Source: an uncultured Bacteroidales bacterium (lineage in GTDB: Bacteria; Bacteroidota; Bacteroidia; Bacteroidales; Muribaculaceae). From it: a DNA stretch of 42,176 nucleotides. Under the pieces are notes generated by a model. The model did not search any database, had not been told where the DNA came from, and worked only from the letters and a program-made list of their open reading frames with translations. Position numbers and translations under genes: made by a program. Positions 21,909-35,928 of the stretch are shown one piece after another; the first letter of the stretch is position 1, and each line of letters starts with the position of its first letter. The stretch spans positions 1-42,176 of the forward strand of contig CACZNH010000017.1 in NCBI GenBank assembly GCA_902782465.1. Reading direction: 5' to 3'.

Positions 21909-22634
21909 ATGGAACAGAAATTTTGTCAGAGCTGCGGAATGCCGCTCACCCAGGATCTGCTCGGCACCAATGCCGACGGCAGTAAGAATGAGGACTATTG
22001 CATCTATTGCTACAAGGACGGCAAGTTCTTGCAGGACTGCACGATGGACGAGATGATTGAGCATTGCGCCCAGTTTGTCGACGAGGTCAACAAGGGCCTG
22101 CCGCAGCCCATCACCAGGGAGGAATACATCGGCCAGATGAAGATGTATTTCCCGCACTTGAAACGGTGGCGCAAGGAGTTGACCATCAATGAAGCGACTC
22201 CCGATAATCCCGCCTTGATGGGCGTTAAAGAACTGATTGCCAAGATGGCCGACACGTTGCCCGTCACTTTTATCTCGTCGGTCGATGAGGAGGGTTACCC
22301 CTGCACTAAGGCCATGCTATCGCCTCGTGTGCGCGAGGGCATCAAGGTGTTCTATTTCACGACCAATACCTTCTCGTTGCGTGTAGCCCATTACAAGACC
22401 AATCCCAAGGCATCCATTTATTTCTGCGATGCTGACGGCTTTAAAGGCATGATGCTGCGTGGCACGATGGAGGTGCTGACCGATGCTGCCATCAAGCAGA
22501 TGATTTGGCGGGAAGGAGACACCGAATACTACCCTGGCGGTGTCACCGATCCCAACTATTGCGTATTGAAGTTCACGGCAACCGATGGCCGCTTCTACAG
22601 CGACTACTATCCCCGCAGCTTTATTATTGAATGA
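21909..22634 (+). CDS. Zinc-ribbon / pyridoxamine 5'-phosphate oxidase-like fusion protein
   Basis: This 241-residue protein has two domains. Residues 1-88 form a zinc-ribbon domain with CQSCG (C6, C9) and CIYC, the other cysteine pair. Residues 90-241 form a split-barrel flavin-binding domain of the PNPOx-like type (LPVTFISSVDEEGYPCTKAML, then KTNPKASIYF and LRGTMEVLTD). PNPOx-like proteins bind FMN or F420 and reduce small molecules. The zinc part shares about 94% of its bases with the stand-alone gene at 23322. Its stop overlaps the next start by 4 nt (ATGA). The role is unknown. Confidence 0.85.
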   Translation: MEQKFCQSCGMPLTQDLLGTNADGSKNEDYCIYCYKDGKFLQDCTMDEMIEHCAQFVDEVNKGLPQPITREEYIGQMKMYFPHLKRWRKELTINEATPDNPALMGVKELIAKMADTLPVTFISSVDEEGYPCTKAMLSPRVREGIKVFYFTTNTFSLRVAHYKTNPKASIYFCDADGFKGMMLRGTMEVLTDAAIKQMIWREGDTEYYPGGVTDPNYCVLKFTATDGRFYSDYYPRSFIIE

Positions 22635-23248
22635 AACAGGTCGTCAACCCCAAGGACACCAGCCGGGCCAAGGCGTTTGAACTGTGGATGTCATCACCCA
22701 TGCCGATGGTGACGCTCACCAAGACCTTTGACGTCACACGTGTCTATAGGATTGCCAAGCGAAAAGGGCTGAGTTTCAACATGCTCCTGTGCTGGTGCAT
22801 TGGGAAGGCAGCCAGTCAGATTAACGAATTCTATACTTTGCCCGAGCAAGGTCAACTGTTCAACTATGACCGTCTCGCTATCAATGTGATTGTTAACAAT
22901 ATTGATGGCGGTATCAACTCATGCGACATTCCATTTACCGATGATTTGGATGAGTTCAGCACCGATTACATCAACTTGACCCAGTCAGCGACAAAGACCT
23001 GTGCAAGCAGTTTTCAGGAGGACATGATGGTAATAGGGACATCAGCGATGACGGCAACCGACCTGGATTGCATCGTCAACCAATACACCGACCAGTTCTG
23101 CAATCCGATGGTGATGTGGGGCCGATATCGCAAGAAGTGGCTAAAAGTCACCCTTCCCATCTCTTTCCAGTTTCATCATGCACAGATGGACGGTGGCCAT
23201 GCCGCCCGCTTCTTGGAAGAATTGCAAAAGGTTATAAAAACCATATAG
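22631..23248 (+). CDS. Chloramphenicol acetyltransferase-like acyltransferase
   Basis: This 205-residue protein of the CatA-like family has the catalytic signature FHHAQMDGGHAARFLEEL. It contains H182-H183 and D187-G188 (HHxxxDG); H183 should be the base. Upstream it has the trimer-fold landmarks (FDVTRVYRIAKRKGLSFNML). True chloramphenicol acetyltransferases are about 213-219 residues; related proteins acetylate other alcohols or are uncharacterised. Resistance should not be assumed. It is translationally coupled to the upstream fusion gene. No signal peptide is seen. Confidence 0.8.
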   Translation: MKQVVNPKDTSRAKAFELWMSSPMPMVTLTKTFDVTRVYRIAKRKGLSFNMLLCWCIGKAASQINEFYTLPEQGQLFNYDRLAINVIVNNIDGGINSCDIPFTDDLDEFSTDYINLTQSATKTCASSFQEDMMVIGTSAMTATDLDCIVNQYTDQFCNPMVMWGRYRKKWLKVTLPISFQFHHAQMDGGHAARFLEELQKVIKTI

Positions 23249-28284: not shown

Positions 28285-29589
28285 TTAGTTTCCGCAATAG
28301 GTTCCCATGAAGAAGATGGAGCGGGTGCTGACCTCGACGATGTAATAGACAAAGGGACGCGTGGCGTGGAAGTCCACCTGCTGGTATTGAGAAGGAGGAG
28401 GAGCGGTAACTTCACCCATCTCGGCGATGGTCACAGCCGATGCCTTGGTGCCCTGCTCGTCGACCTCGATTTTGGCCATCTGCTTCATCATCGACACATA
28501 GAGGTTGCAGTTCTGCGCCGTATTGGGGTCGGCGGCAGAGTGTTGGCGCTGGGCCATATAGGGGAATTCGGCATAATCGGCATTGAAGGCCCGAGTCATA
28601 CCCATCGCCGGGAGCACCTTGTCGAGCATGGTCTCGCTGCTGGTGGTGAAGCGTGGCATCAGGATATCCACCTCATGGGGCTCCATATCGAGCAGTTGCT
28701 GCTGGACGCCGTCGGCCGAGAGGCTCTGGATGACGTCGTCCACGGTCTTGCCCTCGACAGGCAGCAGGACATACATGCCGTAGCCATCGCTGCCGTAGGG
28801 CAGGTAGAGCATCTCGCACAGGTCATTCTTGTCGTAGTCTGCCAACGCCTTGCGGTGCATCATCTTGTGCTGGCGGGTCGAGCCGTCGGGCATGGTGAAG
28901 TCCATGTCGCGGGTGTCATTGGGGTCAAATTTCTCGGTCCACGTGGCCTTGAAGTAGATGGCGTTCAACAGATACATCGCGGCCATGGGATTGAGCTCGT
29001 CAAGGATGGTGGGAATCATGCCGTCGGTTTTCTTGCTGCACCAGTTGTTGATTTTGTCCAGGCTGCTGCTCTTGTTGAAGTCCAGCGCCTCGACCTGGGC
29101 ATTGTAGTAGTTCTGCATGTCGGTCTTGAACTGCGGCACGATGGTGTATCCCAGAGCCAAGTTCACGTTGATGCTGTTGGCAATCTGGACGGTCACGCTG
29201 GGGTCAACCCGCGGCGCCTCGTTGGTCATCTTCTTGCAGTACTCGTTGATTTCCTGGACGGTGCCGCCCAGCCCCAGGACGTCGGTGATTTGCTGGCGCG
29301 TCTGGCCGTCGGCGCCCGTGTTGAGCATGCCCAGGATGTAGGTCACGCTGATGGGCGAGACGATTACGCTGTTGTCGCTGCCCTTCTGCTCGTTGATGGT
29401 GCGGAACAGCCGGCAGGCAAACTCGTTGTTGTTATCGCGCATCTTGCACTGTTCGTCAGTGAGGGTGATACGCTTTAACTTGGGGAGCATGTCGACCACT
29501 ACTTCCCCATTGTCGCTGCACGCGGTGAGCATGCCCAGCAGCATGCAGGCCATCAGGATAGGTTTACAGAAAAAATACTTCATAGTCAT
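28285..29589 (-). CDS. Serpin family protease inhibitor, lipoprotein
   Basis: This 434-residue serpin has a lipoprotein signal peptide with LTAC as the lipobox, so it is membrane-anchored. The serpin fold is complete: NEFACRLFRTI near the start, then NAIYFKATW and a C-terminal VDFHATRPFVYYI. The reactive loop hinge reads EQGTKASAVT with G380 and T381 and small residues next. That is the pattern of an inhibitory serpin. The cleavage site is probably near V394-T395 by count, which would suit elastase-like proteases, but this is a guess. Two start codons (29589 and 29583) are possible. Confidence 0.9.
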   Translation of the reverse strand: MTMKYFFCKPILMACMLLGMLTACSDNGEVVVDMLPKLKRITLTDEQCKMRDNNNEFACRLFRTINEQKGSDNSVIVSPISVTYILGMLNTGADGQTRQQITDVLGLGGTVQEINEYCKKMTNEAPRVDPSVTVQIANSINVNLALGYTIVPQFKTDMQNYYNAQVEALDFNKSSSLDKINNWCSKKTDGMIPTILDELNPMAAMYLLNAIYFKATWTEKFDPNDTRDMDFTMPDGSTRQHKMMHRKALADYDKNDLCEMLYLPYGSDGYGMYVLLPVEGKTVDDVIQSLSADGVQQQLLDMEPHEVDILMPRFTTSSETMLDKVLPAMGMTRAFNADYAEFPYMAQRQHSAADPNTAQNCNLYVSMMKQMAKIEVDEQGTKASAVTIAEMGEVTAPPPSQYQQVDFHATRPFVYYIVEVSTRSIFFMGTYCGN

Positions 29590-30216: not shown

Positions 30217-30317
30217 ATAAAACGGCTTGCGCCGTGCATAATGTTTAATGGATAAATAAGGATTGCGGATACTTCATTAATCATTATCCTTTATCCACGG
30301 CGTTAGCCGTTATTTTA
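30217..30317. repeat. Inverted-repeat element with paired hairpins
   Basis: AACGGCTTGCGCCGTGCATAA (from about 30220) and its mirror TTATCCACGGCGTTAGCCGTTATT (ending near 30314) are inverted copies. Each contains its own small hairpin (ACGGC/GCCGT), around an AT-rich core with ATAATG/CATTAT. It fills the whole spacer, and its end overlaps the stop codon of the sialidase-like gene. Confidence 0.65.
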
Positions 30318-31421
30318 CTTGAGGGTGATATCATCGCAGTCGATGGTTTTGCGCTGATTGGTAACCGTGACATAGAGGTGGCCGTTGGAGCCCTGGATGA
30401 TGGCAGGATAGGATATCTCTCCCTCAGGGTCGAGCTTTCCTTCAGAGAAGACCTTCCAGTGCTCACCGTCATCGCTGATGGCCATGGCAAGCCGTGTGCG
30501 CGGACCCATCTCCTTGCCAGCCTTAACGGTCTGGTTGTTATAGACCAGGACGTGGCGTCCGTCCCGCAGGGTCACGGCATCGATGCCGCTGTTGTTGTTG
30601 GGCAGGTCGGTGAGCGTGACCTCGCTCCAGGTCTCGCCGCCATCACGGCTGGTGGTCGTGGCAATGCGGCCATTCTTGGTACGGCACAGGGCCTTGAGCG
30701 AGCCGTCGGCCATCTGCAACAGTGTCGGCTGGATGCACATGATTTCCTTGCGCTTTGCGTTGCGCTTTCCCTTATCCATAGTGGTAAGGGCTTTGGCGGC
30801 CTTAACGGGAGCCGTCTTGTGCCACTGATTGGTGTTCAGGTCCAGAATTTCGAAGTGGATGCGCCACCAGTCTTTCTCGGTGCTTGAGGGGCAAATGAGC
30901 CTGTCGCCTAGCAGCAGCGGCTTGTTCTTGCTAGGGCCGAGGAAGCCCTCGGGAAGCGGTTCGCGCTGGCTCCACGTCTTGCCGCCGTCACGTGACTTGG
31001 TGAGCCATCCCGTCCAGTCGGCGACACAGGAACCGATCTTGAAAAACAGCCATAACTCGCCGTTGGGCATCTGCTGCAGCACGGGATTGTAACAGGCCTT
31101 GCGCAAGGTGTCGCTGAGCACCCCGTCGGCAGCGATGGCGGGTTCGGTCCATTCAAAGGCGCCTTTGGGCAATCGGGTTACCCAGATGCACACATCCTCA
31201 CAGCCCTCATAGCTGCCGCCATAGCAAGCCACCACCAGGTCGCCGTCAGCGGTTTCGGCAATCGTCGAGGCATGGCAAGACTCGAACGGAGCCGCCTTGA
31301 ACAGGTACCACGGCTCAACCCAGTCTATGACCTGCCGCTTGTCCCAATCGCCGGCCTGTTGCCCTAATAAACTGTGCGCAGCCAGTAGCGCCAGCAAGCA
31401 TGTCAGGAGCTTTAGCTTCAT
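30315..31421 (-). CDS. Secreted BNR-repeat (sialidase-like) protein
   Basis: This 368-residue protein has a signal peptide (about 1-20) and three Asp-box motifs: SRDGGKTWS (143-151), SRDGGETWS (258-266) and SDDGEHWK (316-323). This is a six-bladed beta-propeller of the sialidase-like type (BNR family, PF13088 type). The FRIP motif expected in genuine GH33 sialidases is not seen, so sialic acid cleavage is doubtful; another glycan-active or binding role is as likely. It is followed by the FMN-binding-type gene upstream on the same strand, 12 nt away. Confidence 0.78.
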   Translation of the reverse strand: MKLKLLTCLLALLAAHSLLGQQAGDWDKRQVIDWVEPWYLFKAAPFESCHASTIAETADGDLVVACYGGSYEGCEDVCIWVTRLPKGAFEWTEPAIAADGVLSDTLRKACYNPVLQQMPNGELWLFFKIGSCVADWTGWLTKSRDGGKTWSQREPLPEGFLGPSKNKPLLLGDRLICPSSTEKDWWRIHFEILDLNTNQWHKTAPVKAAKALTTMDKGKRNAKRKEIMCIQPTLLQMADGSLKALCRTKNGRIATTTSRDGGETWSEVTLTDLPNNNSGIDAVTLRDGRHVLVYNNQTVKAGKEMGPRTRLAMAISDDGEHWKVFSEGKLDPEGEISYPAIIQGSNGHLYVTVTNQRKTIDCDDITLK

Positions 31422-31433
31422 CTAAATCGGTGA

Positions 31434-31940
31434 TCAGCGGCGTTTCTTGGCGGCTTTCTTGGCAGTTTTCTGCTTGGTCTTTGCTGTGTTCTTTTTGCCT
31501 TTGACAGCCTTTTTGTTGGCAGCTGCCGATTTCTTAGACAAGGCTGCTGATTTGGAATTGTCGAGACCCATCTGGATGTTCTTGATGAGGGCCTCGCTGG
31601 TGTAAGTCGCTCCGGTGGCGATGTCGGCGTTCAGCTTCTTGGCCTCGGCGACGGTCTTGCCGATGTACTGGGGCAACACCTTGTCCTGAGCACGCTTGAG
31701 GTAAGCGGGCGACTCCTGGTTAGGGAGCACCTCGATGTTCTCGATTACACCGTTCTTGACGGTGATATTGAGCGGCGTGGTGCCGTTGTAGCCAATCACC
31801 TTGCTAGCGATGTCGCCGGTGTAGATGACCTTAGTGGTATTGGCCTTTTTGGTCTTGGCCGATTTCTTGGTGCGGGCATCCATCGATGCGGTGCCTGCCA
31901 CGAGCAGCATGATGGCTGCGATGATGATGGTCTTTTTCAT
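31434..31940 (-). CDS. Secreted FMN-binding-domain protein with lysine-rich tail
   Basis: This 168-residue protein has a signal peptide, a lysine-rich linker (KKSAKTKKA) and an FMN_bind-type domain (about 38-125) with DIATGATYTSEALIKNIQ. The TGAT motif (109-112) is the site where flavin is attached through a threonine phosphoester in NqrC-like domains. The last 40 residues are lysine and alanine (AALSKKSAAANKKAVKG ... KKAAKKRR). A similar tail is on the GH57 protein. It likely acts in envelope electron transfer, or only binds flavin; the tail role is unknown. It starts directly after an ACTGAAA repeat. Confidence 0.78.
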   Translation of the reverse strand: MKKTIIIAAIMLLVAGTASMDARTKKSAKTKKANTTKVIYTGDIASKVIGYNGTTPLNITVKNGVIENIEVLPNQESPAYLKRAQDKVLPQYIGKTVAEAKKLNADIATGATYTSEALIKNIQMGLDNSKSAALSKKSAAANKKAVKGKKNTAKTKQKTAKKAAKKRR

Positions 31941-32073: not shown

Positions 32074-32823
32074 TTAATCTTCACCCAGCATTTTTTTGGC
32101 TTGGGCGAGGGTGTCGGGCTTGCCGATGTCGAGCCACTGGTAGTCGGTATCGGGGTGATAGCCTTGGATGAGGTAGTGCTTGCACTCGTTGATATAGAAC
32201 GGCACGATGGAGAATTTCTCGCCCTCCTGGCGGCGGTAACGCTCCAGGTGAGGGAAGATGCGCGGCGAGATGACGTGCATGCCGCCGAAGGCCATCTCGC
32301 GCAACTGGCGGTCACGCAGCTTCTCGGGGTCGGGACGGAACTCGCCCGTCGCCTTGTTGGTCCAGCCGCACAGGCGGTCGTTCTCGTCGAGCAGAAAATA
32401 ACGCTGCGTTTTGCGCTCCTTGACCAGAAGCGTAGCCAGCGCATCGTGCTCGACGTGGTAGTCGTAGAACGCCTTCAGGTCCAGCGTGCTGATGATGTCG
32501 GTGTTGTGGACCAGGAAGGGCTCGTCGCCATCCAGCCACTGGCGTGCCTTGAGGATGCCGCCGCCCGTGTCGAGCAGCAGACCGCGCTCGTCGCTGATGT
32601 GCAGGTTCACGCCAAAGTTGTCGTGCTGCTCCAGGAAGTCGATAATCATCTGCCCGTAATGGTGGATGTTGATGGTGATGTCGTCAAAACCGGCTGCCGC
32701 CACACGCTCGATAACGTGTTGCAGCATGGGTTTTCCGGCAATCTCGACCATCGCCTTGGGACGGTCGTCGGTGAGCGGACGCAGGCGTGTGCCCAGCCCA
32801 GCGGCAAAAATCAGTGCTTTCAT
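32074..32823 (-). CDS. MurU-like nucleotidyltransferase (sugar-1-phosphate uridylyl/guanylyltransferase)
   Basis: This 249-residue nucleotidyltransferase begins MKALIFAAGLGTRLRPLTDD with the signature GLGTRLRPLT and KAMVEIAGKPML. It keeps the GGGILKA and VHNTDI segments of the active site. The length fits MurU, which makes UDP-MurNAc from MurNAc 1-phosphate, or a short mannose-1-phosphate guanylyltransferase. The upstream gene encodes an AmgK-like kinase and overlaps it by 4 nt (ATGA). In Pseudomonas AmgK and MurU form a cell-wall sugar salvage route, so MurU is the best reading. The substrate is inferred from the neighbour. Confidence 0.8.
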   Translation of the reverse strand: MKALIFAAGLGTRLRPLTDDRPKAMVEIAGKPMLQHVIERVAAAGFDDITINIHHYGQMIIDFLEQHDNFGVNLHISDERGLLLDTGGGILKARQWLDGDEPFLVHNTDIISTLDLKAFYDYHVEHDALATLLVKERKTQRYFLLDENDRLCGWTNKATGEFRPDPEKLRDRQLREMAFGGMHVISPRIFPHLERYRRQEGEKFSIVPFYINECKHYLIQGYHPDTDYQWLDIGKPDTLAQAKKMLGED

Positions 32824-34286
32824 GGTTTGTCAACAGGATTAAGGGTGCGTTCGTGGTCGGGCTGCTCACGGTGCGAGAGCTCGACGCGCACGTTGAATTT
32901 CTCGTGGATATGCTCGGCAAGGTGCTCGGCGGCATAGACCGAGCGGTGCTGGCCGCCCGTGCAGCCAAAGCACACCATCAGGTCGGTGAAACTGCGCTTC
33001 TTGTAACGCTCCACCGACTCATCGACCAGGGCATAGACGTGCTCCAGCCATTGGTCGATGGTACTCTCCTTCTTCAGGAAGTCGATGACGTTCTGGTCCA
33101 GGCCTGTGAATGCCTTGTACTTGTCATACTTGCCGGGGTTGTTCAGTGCGCGGCAGTCGAACACAAAGCCGCCTCCGTTGCCCGATGAATCGTGGGGGAT
33201 GCCCTTTTTGTAGGCAAAGCTCATCACCCTGACAGTGAGGCCCTTATCCTCGCTGACGAAGTCCTTGAGGTTGACCAGCTCGTCGATGACGAGGCTCAAG
33301 TAGGGATATTGGGTGAACGGCTTGTCAACCACCAGTTTGCGCAGGTTGGCCACGGCGGGAACGATGCTGTTCTTCATGAAGTCGGGCTTTTTCTCGAAGT
33401 AGCCGCGGAAACCATAGGCGCCCAACACCTGCAGCGTGCGGAAGAGCACAAACAGGCGCAGGTTGTGGTAGAATTCCTGCTCATCGAGGTCAGGCAAGTA
33501 TTCCTTGAGTTTCTTCAGATAGGCCTCGACGAGGTCCTTCTTCAACTCGTCGGGATACTTGGCGCGGGACTGCCACACAAAGGATGCCACGTCATAGTAG
33601 TACGGGCCACGACGGCCGCCCTGGAAGTCGATGAACGCCAGCTTGCAGTCGGCGGGATGGTCGGCATCGCCCACGAGCATCACGTTGCGGGACTGGAAGT
33701 CACGGTACATGAAGGTCTCGCTGGGCACCGTGAGCAGGTCACGCGTGAGTTTCTCGAAGTCGTTCTCCAGCTTGTCCTCGTTGAAGTTGATGCCGGTGGC
33801 CTTGAGGAAGCAGTACTTGAAGTAGTTCAGGTCCCACTTGATGGAACGCTCGTCAAAGCACTTGGCGGGGTAACAGTGACTGTAGTCAAATTCCTCGGCG
33901 CCTCGGAACTGGATGTCCACCAGGTCACGCATGGCGCGACGCAGCAGTTCCTTTTCATCGCTGGCAAAGGCATGGGTCATCGCACTGCGGCGAATCTTGT
34001 TCCACAGGATGTTCTCGGGCTTCTTGCCCAGGTCCTCCTGGATATAGGCCATGTGGTCGTCGCTCACGCCATAGACCTCGGGAACCGACAGTCCCTTCTC
34101 GCGGAAGTGGCGTGCCATATAGATGAACGCGTCGTTCTCCTCGCGCGACTCGCCGATGACGCCCACAATCGAGCGCTCACCGTGCATGCGGTAATACTGG
34201 CGATTGGAGCCCGCCTTGTCCATCAGCACAATCTCGGTGGGCTCGCTGCCCACAAATTGCTTGTATAATATACTCAGTCTTTCCAT
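32820..34286 (-). CDS. AmgK-like sugar kinase fused to a RapZ C-terminal domain
   Basis: This 488-residue protein has two domains. Residues 1-345 are an aminoglycoside-phosphotransferase-like kinase of the AmgK type: FMYRDFQSRN (catalytic D196) and FIDFQGGRRGPYYYDVASFV (D220 for magnesium). AmgK phosphorylates MurNAc and GlcNAc at C1. Residues 350-475 match the C-terminal domain of RapZ: SFAYKKGIPHD, FVFDCRALNNP, TGLDQNVIDFL and GCTGGQHRSV (441-450). In E. coli this domain binds glucosamine 6-phosphate. The end is short, without the basic tail used for RNA binding. The RapZ nucleotide-binding half is absent. The stop overlaps the MurU-like start. Confidence 0.88.
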   Translation of the reverse strand: MERLSILYKQFVGSEPTEIVLMDKAGSNRQYYRMHGERSIVGVIGESREENDAFIYMARHFREKGLSVPEVYGVSDDHMAYIQEDLGKKPENILWNKIRRSAMTHAFASDEKELLRRAMRDLVDIQFRGAEEFDYSHCYPAKCFDERSIKWDLNYFKYCFLKATGINFNEDKLENDFEKLTRDLLTVPSETFMYRDFQSRNVMLVGDADHPADCKLAFIDFQGGRRGPYYYDVASFVWQSRAKYPDELKKDLVEAYLKKLKEYLPDLDEQEFYHNLRLFVLFRTLQVLGAYGFRGYFEKKPDFMKNSIVPAVANLRKLVVDKPFTQYPYLSLVIDELVNLKDFVSEDKGLTVRVMSFAYKKGIPHDSSGNGGGFVFDCRALNNPGKYDKYKAFTGLDQNVIDFLKKESTIDQWLEHVYALVDESVERYKKRSFTDLMVCFGCTGGQHRSVYAAEHLAEHIHEKFNVRVELSHREQPDHERTLNPVDKP

Positions 34287-34350: not shown

Positions 34351-35928
34351 TTAGAATTCACTGGTGAAGTGGAAGGTAATCTTGGGGAAGTCCTGTTGCG
34401 CCATCTGCAGGACGTAGTTGCTGTCGGCGAGGAAGACGTCACGGCCCTCGCGGTCAAGCGCCATGAACTGGTGTTTGCGCTTCTTGAAGGCATCCAGGGC
34501 ATCCTCGTCGTCGCTCTCAATCCAACAGGCCTTGTACAGGTGGATGGGCTCCCAGCGGCACTGCGCGCCATACTCGTGCAGCAGGCGGTACTGGATGACC
34601 TCGAACTGCAGCTGGCCGACGGTGCCAATAATCTTGCGGTTGTTGAACTGGTTGACGAACATCTGCGCCACACCCTCGTCCATCAACTGTTCGATGCCCT
34701 TGTTGAGCTGCTTGGTCTTCATCGGGTCGGTGTTCTCGATGTACTTGAACATCTCGGGCGAGAAGCTGGGCAAGCCGCGGAAGTGGAGCGATTCGCCCTC
34801 GGTCAGGGTGTCGCCAATCTTGAAAATGCCGTTGTCGGGCAGGCCGACGATGTCACCGGGATAAACCTCATCGATGATTTCCTTCTTCTGCGCCATAAAG
34901 GCCGTGGGGGCGCTGAAGCGGTAACTCTTGCCGCTGCGCACATGCAGGTAGTTGCCGTTGCGCTGGAAAACGCCCGAGCACACCTTGACAAAGGCGATGC
35001 AGCTGCGGTGGTTGGGGTCCATATTGGCGTGAATCTTGAACACAAAGCCCGTGAACTTGTCCTCACCGGGCTCCACCGTGCGCTCGATGGCGGTTACGGG
35101 ACGGGGCGACGGGGCGATGCGCACAAAGCAGTCAAGCAACTCCTTGACGCCGAAGGTGTTCAGCGCCGAGCCAAAGAAAACGGGAGCCACCTTGGCATCC
35201 AGGTAGTCGAGCGTGTTGAAGTCGGGATAGACGCCATCGATGAGCTCGATGTCGGCACGCAGCTTCTCGGCATCGGCCTTGCCCACGGCAGCGTCGATGG
35301 CGGGGTCGTTGATGTCGTTGATGTCCACGCGGTCGGTGACATGCTGCTTGTCGGGCTTGAACAGGCTGATGTTGTGCTCGTAGATGTTGTACACGCCCTT
35401 GAAGTGGGCTCCGATGTTGATGGGCCAGCTCAGGGGGCGCACGTCAATCTGCAGTTCCTGCTCCAGTTCGTCGAGGATGTCAAACGGGTCGCGGCCCTCG
35501 CGGTCGAGCTTGTTGACAAAGATGATGACGGGGGTGTTGCGCATGCGGCACACCTCCATCAGCTTGCGCGTCTGGGTCTCGACACCCTTGGCGACGTCGA
35601 CCACGATGATAACACTGTCAACGGCAGTGAGGGTGCGGTAGGTGTCCTCGGCAAAGTCCTGGTGGCCAGGAGTGTCAAGGATGTTGATTTTGTAATCGCC
35701 GTAGTTGAATCCCATGACCGAGGTGGCGACCGAGATACCACGTTGTTTCTCGATTTCCATCCAGTCGCTGGTGGCGGTCTTCTTTATCTTGTTGGATTTC
35801 ACAGCACCTGCCACATGGATAGCGCCACCAAAGAGCAGCAGCTTCTCGGTTAGCGTTGTTTTACCTGCATCGGGGTGAGAGATGATGGCAAAGGTGCGGC
35901 GGCGGGTGATTTCAGTTGTCAGAGACAT
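34351..35928 (-). CDS. prfC: Peptide chain release factor 3
   Basis: This 525-residue translational GTPase has the P-loop [10 protein letters not shown], the G3 motif DTPGHQDF and the G4 motif NKLDREGRD. An insert typical of RF3 follows G4 ([20 protein letters not shown]), then domains II and III with the IVGLPDNG and [11 protein letters not shown] segments. The length is that of RF3, and the start [20 protein letters not shown] is standard. RF3 removes RF1 and RF2 from the ribosome after peptide release. It lies in a - strand run with rfbD, DUF4924 and a Crp-type gene. Its start is preceded by an ACTGAAA repeat. Confidence 0.96.

Follow-up and report, generated by a model that had tools for sequence, protein, structure and literature searches.

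A predicted cell-wall salvage kinase fused to a RapZ-type domain in Bacteroidales

What does a domain known from the RNase adapter RapZ do at the end of a kinase that resembles the cell-wall salvage enzyme AmgK? This question is raised by a gene on contig CACZNH010000017.1 (assembly GCA_902782465.1) of an uncultured Bacteroidales bacterium of the gut, a member of the Muribaculaceae; the window is the whole stretch of 42,176 nucleotides analyzed here. We consider it somewhat probable, at roughly 60%, that the gene encodes a two-domain salvage enzyme in which an AmgK-type kinase is combined with a RapZ-type partner domain, with a MurU-like enzyme alongside. The N-terminal kinase would add a phosphate to C1 of N-acetylmuramic acid (MurNAc), and perhaps of N-acetylglucosamine (GlcNAc), and the MurU-like protein that the overlapping gene encodes would convert this product to uridine diphosphate (UDP)-MurNAc. 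The C-terminal domain would be a dedicated partner of the kinase, holding a phosphorylated amino sugar in a C-x5-R oxyanion loop and thereby adjusting, or cooperating with, the kinase; it would act at the protein level and not via the GlmZ RNA.

32820-34286, minus strand: fusion open reading frame, 488 amino acids, ATG start
33252-34286, minus strand: AmgK-like (APH-fold) kinase domain, residues 1-345
33684-33707, minus strand: kinase catalytic loop YRDFQSRN, residues 194-201
32865-33239, minus strand: RapZ-type C-terminal domain, residues 350-474
33168-33182, minus strand: Gly-rich insert GNGGG, residues 369-373
33132-33140, minus strand: NPG, residues 383-385, with Gly at the E. coli pocket H190 position (from the alignment)
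32940-32963, minus strand: C-T-G-G-Q-H-R-S, residues 442-449, predicted oxyanion loop with the C-x5-R-S pattern
32074-32823, minus strand: MurU-like sugar-1-phosphate uridylyltransferase, overlapping the fusion by 4 bases
34351-35928, minus strand: prfC (release factor 3), the neighbor gene directly upstream of the fusion

An earlier note on this DNA, made from the sequence alone, had placed an AmgK-like kinase at residues 1-345, and profile and structure searches agree with it. Pfam APH (PF01636) is found at residues 27-257 (2.7e-11), the top Foldseek match of the full fusion model is 3csv (E=5.5e-10), and a profile built from alignment A2 matches the same structure at 1.6e-19. The protein has the APH kinase fold with D196, N201 and D220, which we take to be the catalytic Asp, the Asn and the metal-binding Asp of this family; all three are invariant in alignments A1 and A2, and R195, D196, F197, R200 and N201 are invariant in a set of 16 fusions and likewise in a set of 49. 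The note had also pointed to YRDFQSRN in place of the usual HRD. The replacement is present but not peculiar to this protein: Y, F or I stands in place of His before RDFQ across both alignments, so that the change is a family trait, and we rejected it as the mark of a dead or odd kinase. The NCBIfam AmgK models score 41.6 and 38.9 bits on the fusion versus equivalog cut-offs of 550 and 500. The next gene, MurU-like according to the note, has MurU as its top NCBIfam model (138.9 bits versus a curated equivalog cut-off of 250) and 4y7t, labelled 'Nucleotidyl transferase', as its top PDB sequence match (E=3.3e-24); we take 4y7t to be P. putida MurU. Since both proteins fall far under the curated equivalog cut-offs, we use the names 'AmgK-like' and 'MurU-like'.

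The proposal of a RapZ C-terminal domain at residues 350-475 was borne out by profile search, which returned PF22740 at residues 350-474 (2.3e-35, 121.8 bits versus a cut-off of 27), and the region has the RapZ C-terminal fold. The full-length RapZ model aligns only at positions 132-277 of 278 (112.7 bits versus a cut-off of 244), and the N-terminal P-loop domain of RapZ is not found in the fusion. The basic C-terminal tail with which E. coli RapZ binds RNA is absent from the alignment and from the tail sequence, as the note had stated. The published RapZ pocket consists of H190, T248, G249, H252 and R253, with C247 nearby (PMC5737377, PMC9841335). The claim that the GCTGGQHRSV pocket is kept therefore stands for the motif and for four of the five published positions (T248, G249, H252 and R253), but not for the position of H190, which is Gly in the window protein and in all 129 Bacteroidota domains compared. 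The loop GCTGG[QR]HRS is likewise found in 129/129 domains; the 80 named loci among them had been searched with a pattern that includes this loop, and the 49 loci found by profile show it independently (49/49). An insert, [GNSE][NH]GGG, immediately precedes the FD-x-R strand in 125 of the 129 domains by pattern, and the printed sequences of the remaining four also contain [NH]GGG; the lost H190 position sits a few residues after it. The aligned RapZ proteins of Xanthomonas, Nonomuraea, Acinetobacter, Azospirillum, Sphingomonas, Paracoccus and E. coli have the His and are without the insert, and three actinobacterial plasmid copies, also without the insert, have His, Tyr and Phe at this position, one each. 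Because the loop is conserved, H190 has become Gly and [NH]GGG has been inserted, the pocket appears to retain its phosphate-holding half, with the opposite wall rebuilt.

Two side observations concern RapZ outside Bacteroidota. The plasmid genes belong to Streptomyces and Planobispora and are annotated as RapZ (L186 carries Tyr, L194 His and L195 Phe); those of L186 and L194, with 483 and 543 bases, are too short to encode full-length RapZ; the annotation near these plasmid genes lists no kinase. Canonical rapZ lies within an HPr kinase - rapZ - phosphotransferase system (PTS) IIA - HPr cluster in Xanthomonas, Azospirillum and Sphingomonas (L188, L191, L192).

We searched a collection in which each species is represented by a single genome, using the fusion alignment and the motifs FGCTGGQH and [YF]RDFQ[SA]RN[IV], and obtained at least 594 confirmed relatives. 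The best 80 of these were retained as the named loci, and 80/80 are fused; as top matches to a fused query with the motifs, they are biased towards fused, motif-bearing copies. Their record titles include Bacteroides, Phocaeicola, Parabacteroides, Tannerella, Prevotella, Paludibacter and many uncultured bins, and the fusion is common in Bacteroidales. A survey of the phylum gave PF22740 in 49 of 395 genomes, with exactly one match in each, and we therefore rejected the idea of an additional canonical RapZ in these genomes. The open frames that bear the domain are 476-524 amino acids long in 37 genomes and 134-169 in 12. When the kinase alignment was run against the same 395 genomes, it gave 50 strong matches (E below 1e-60), which comprise all 49 PF22740 genomes and one other, G009; a further 84 genomes, all of one family (f19), have weak kinase matches only. 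The kinase and the RapZ-type domain are fused in 37 of the 49 genomes, encoded by neighboring genes in 8 and apart in 4 (in one of these, G180, the kinase match contains a stop). Chance or mis-assembly as the source of the fusion was rejected on the 37/49 profile-found genomes and the 80/80 retained loci.

A kinase tree rooted on f19, made by a quick method and with many weak branches, places separated copies at three points among the fused ones and includes G009 as a kinase without the RapZ-type domain. The split in G031 comes from an in-frame stop with a new start after it, and its genus mate G124 is fused. At L068 (6882-8306) the kinase and the RapZ-type domain are parted by a stop in the frame and a new start, with the genus mate L067 fused; either the gene was split recently or the sequence contains an error. 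A stand-alone RapZ-type domain lies beside a major facilitator superfamily (MFS) transporter gene in two genomes of a single genus (L037, 6627-8441; L041, 6673-8393), and their kinase is elsewhere. A MurU-like gene lies directly downstream of the RapZ-type domain at 39 of the 49 survey loci, 70 of the 80 named loci and all 30 loci fetched from the window's genus. Kinase followed by MurU, with no RapZ-type domain found, occurs at five f19 loci and in G009.

We also asked whether the window's genus appears to need salvage. In 61 relatives, 37 of them from the genus, MurA matches to TIGR01072 had to exceed 370 bits to be counted, and MurB was scored by its C-terminal domain (PF02873). Profile searches with these two models gave no MurA or MurB match in the window's draft genome, in which MurF-Alr is present; the MurA and MurB of a genus mate, searched against about 1.4 of the 3.1 Mb of this genome, gave no match either. 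Within the genus MurA is found in 10/37 members and MurB in the same 10, versus 23/24 and 22/24 relatives, respectively, outside it. About 4.6 genomes without murA would be expected from stated completeness, versus the 27 observed, and at 95% completeness or more murA and murB are present in 2 of 7 genomes. In eight of the 27 the MurA model gives matches of 17-28 bits, which we infer to be the related 5-enolpyruvylshikimate-3-phosphate (EPSP) synthase; the window's genome has none. The fusion is present in 36 of the 37 genus members (in two pieces in G467) and matched in 22 of the 24 other relatives, in three over kinase residues only and in three with one internal stop. The near-perfect co-occurrence of the two domains, together with the lack of MurA and MurB matches in the draft genome and in most other genus members, strengthens the salvage role that the earlier note had proposed, and this reading of the fusion is well supported as a predicted activity.

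An adjacent murB-murA pair was seen in G475, G479, G481, G485, G488, G489, G492, G494 and G496 (L226-L234). A syntenic empty-site comparison covered these nine neighborhoods: L230 and L232 share flanks, as do L229 and L233, and in L231 the shared genes lie 7-8 kb away. The other four have no immediate flanking gene in common with the rest, as would be seen if some members of the genus had relocated or reacquired the pair.

The published setting is that of the AmgK-MurU pathway of Pseudomonas, Caulobacter and Tannerella, which resembles the present locus in its APH-fold kinase with conserved catalytic D, N and DF and its MurU-like next gene. The fusion differs in its additional RapZ-type domain and in the low scores of both proteins against the curated models. 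T. forsythia is reported to be without murA, murB, glmS and glmU and to depend on MurNAc from outside (PMC5790795); AmgK and MurU are named in the literature as its MurNAc route, and the pair is described as functional in E. coli. Of 31 genomes of any completeness from the genus to which a Tannerella bin belongs, 11 have the fusion, as do 5 of the 6 at 95% or more, and G425 of this genus has the fusion and no MurA match; in the family, 41 of 43 genomes at 97% completeness or more match it, with the copy of G465 broken by stops. A literature search found no publication joining AmgK with RapZ, and the one paper matching RapZ with Bacteroides is an E. coli phage-resistance screen. Further literature consulted is PMC7670621, PMC13041923, PMC13046382, PMC10465942 and PMC6721243.

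Several points weigh against the proposed salvage enzyme. The substrate of the kinase is not fixed, because it and the MurU-like protein score far under the AmgK and MurU cut-offs, and another APH-fold kinase of Bacteroides is reported to be a GalNAc 1-kinase (PMC11992087). Such BT4240-type HexNAc/GalNAc 1-kinases are likewise APH-fold anomeric amino-sugar kinases, but belong to a mucin-induced catabolic locus, and the excerpt of that paper mentions no RapZ domain. The scans of the genus and family around the Tannerella bin could not show that the AmgK of T. forsythia is the fusion. No MurU-like gene is found at 10 of the 49 survey loci, nor within 300 bases downstream at 10 of the 80 named loci; of the latter, four have one farther off and two have scant contig left. 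Since murB and murA are adjacent in the genus, their joint absence counts as one observation. On the fusion tree the genomes that have them are scattered, with 10 changes, a number not below that obtained in shuffles; four of the nine murBA neighborhoods share no immediate neighbor with the others. A real turnover of murBA would give this scatter, and so would metagenome bins that systematically miss the locus. G497, a genus member at 93% completeness, lacks the fusion, murA and murB alike. Finally, any regulation of the kinase by the domain, in its existence as in its direction, enters the proposed enzyme as a supposition.

The role of the C-terminal domain admits several other explanations. 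The earlier note had it sense glucosamine 6-phosphate (GlcN6P) exactly as in E. coli RapZ, tuning the kinase to the GlcN6P pool. The four retained pocket positions and the binding of GlcN6P by the E. coli domain (PMC7073468) agree with this; however, the uniform Gly at the H190 position, close to the Gly-rich insert, and the report that H190A abolishes E. coli RapZ activity (PMC9841335) argue against it, as does the reported lack of glmS in T. forsythia, whose family so widely matches the fusion. As stated the claim is not supported, and we regard it as unlikely. Because H190 is lost, the ligand probably differs from that of E. coli RapZ; it could be a different sugar phosphate, or the domain could act as an enzyme. 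A C-x5-R loop is the signature of cysteine phosphatases, and in the predicted model the loop of the fusion spans the end of a strand (C442) to the start of a helix (R448), giving the C-x2-G-x2-R-S, or C-x5-R-[ST], strand-loop-helix arrangement of such enzymes, for example low-molecular-weight protein tyrosine phosphatases (LMW-PTP) and dual-specificity phosphatases (DUSP). The VIA-align structure list includes other C-x5-R phosphatases and not the low-molecular-weight ones, an absence that is uninformative. The domain could accordingly be a cysteine-dependent sugar-phosphate phosphatase or phosphotransferase acting through C442 and R448; for example, it would free MurNAc from MurNAc 6-phosphate (the MupP step) before the fused kinase phosphorylates C1. 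PMC9841335 is favorable to this: C247A and even C247S abolish E. coli RapZ activity, a catalytic -SH is suggested by the authors, a crystal with GlcN6P held a probably transformed ligand, and the role of the invariant cysteine is described as an open question. AnmK, the source of MurNAc 6-phosphate, is found in 31 of the 49 kinase-matching genomes with the RapZ-type domain, and among the AnmK matches listed none comes from f19 or G009. It is not enriched with the domain, at 31/49 (one weak) versus 240/346 without it (hand count), and MurQ is found in 4 of 8 fusion genomes, in three above the cut-off. We hold a catalytic role to be a doubtful, tentative alternative. It would extend to an ancestral view, speculative and rather unlikely, in which the RapZ C-terminal domain is by origin a cysteine-dependent enzyme of sugar phosphates, the Bacteroidota job is the original one and RNA regulation in E. 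coli is a later use of the same pocket; the domain would then handle an amino-sugar phosphate such as MurNAc 6-phosphate within the protein that produces MurNAc 1-phosphate, including in lineages without MurA and MurB.

Feedback from the end product, a UDP-sugar, rather than from GlcN6P would fit the UDP-sugar that MurU would produce in the same operon and the binding of UDP-GlcNAc by the B. subtilis homologue YvcJ (PMC7525490). We think it quite unlikely, given that K22A abolishes this binding (PMC7525490) and that K22 presumably sits in the N-terminal P-loop domain, in whose place the fusion has an APH-fold kinase. Very unlikely is an RNA-binding or merely dimerizing module retained from a RapZ ancestor: the E. 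coli domain dimerizes and binds RNA (PMC5737377), and in the alignment the window protein retains basic residues where E. coli RapZ has K170, R184, K194 and R196, but the basic tail is gone, as is H190, which GlmZ processing in E. coli requires. The near-perfect coupling to the kinase, even as separate genes, also stands against such a module and points to a metabolic role.

The remaining neighbors are described for completeness. The prfC gene also lies upstream of the fusion in the near relatives L079-L083, L086 and L088, and is probably not part of its function. Downstream of the MurU-like gene are a BNR-repeat (sialidase-like) gene (30315-31940, minus strand) and a flavin mononucleotide (FMN)-binding-domain gene. 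The window also encodes a serpin protease inhibitor (28285-29589, minus strand; Pfam 2.6e-94), here in a bacterial genome, and a match to the chloramphenicol acetyltransferase family (22631-23248, plus strand; PF00302, 63 bits), immediately preceded by a zinc-ribbon/pyridoxamine-oxidase-like gene.

We regard the fusion as a new form of AmgK-MurU system. The RefSeq-derived annotation of the copies in Bacteroides finegoldii and Parabacteroides distasonis is 'RNase adapter RapZ', followed by a 'nucleotidyltransferase family protein', and the former name hides a probable cell-wall salvage kinase. The role of the RapZ domain outside enterobacteria is unsettled, and the fusion offers a good handle on its chemistry: because the domain comes coupled to one kinase whose product can be measured, a single assay could address its ligand, any catalysis and any regulation together. 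Should MurA and MurB truly be missing from the window's genus, the fusion operon would be the only known route to UDP-MurNAc there.
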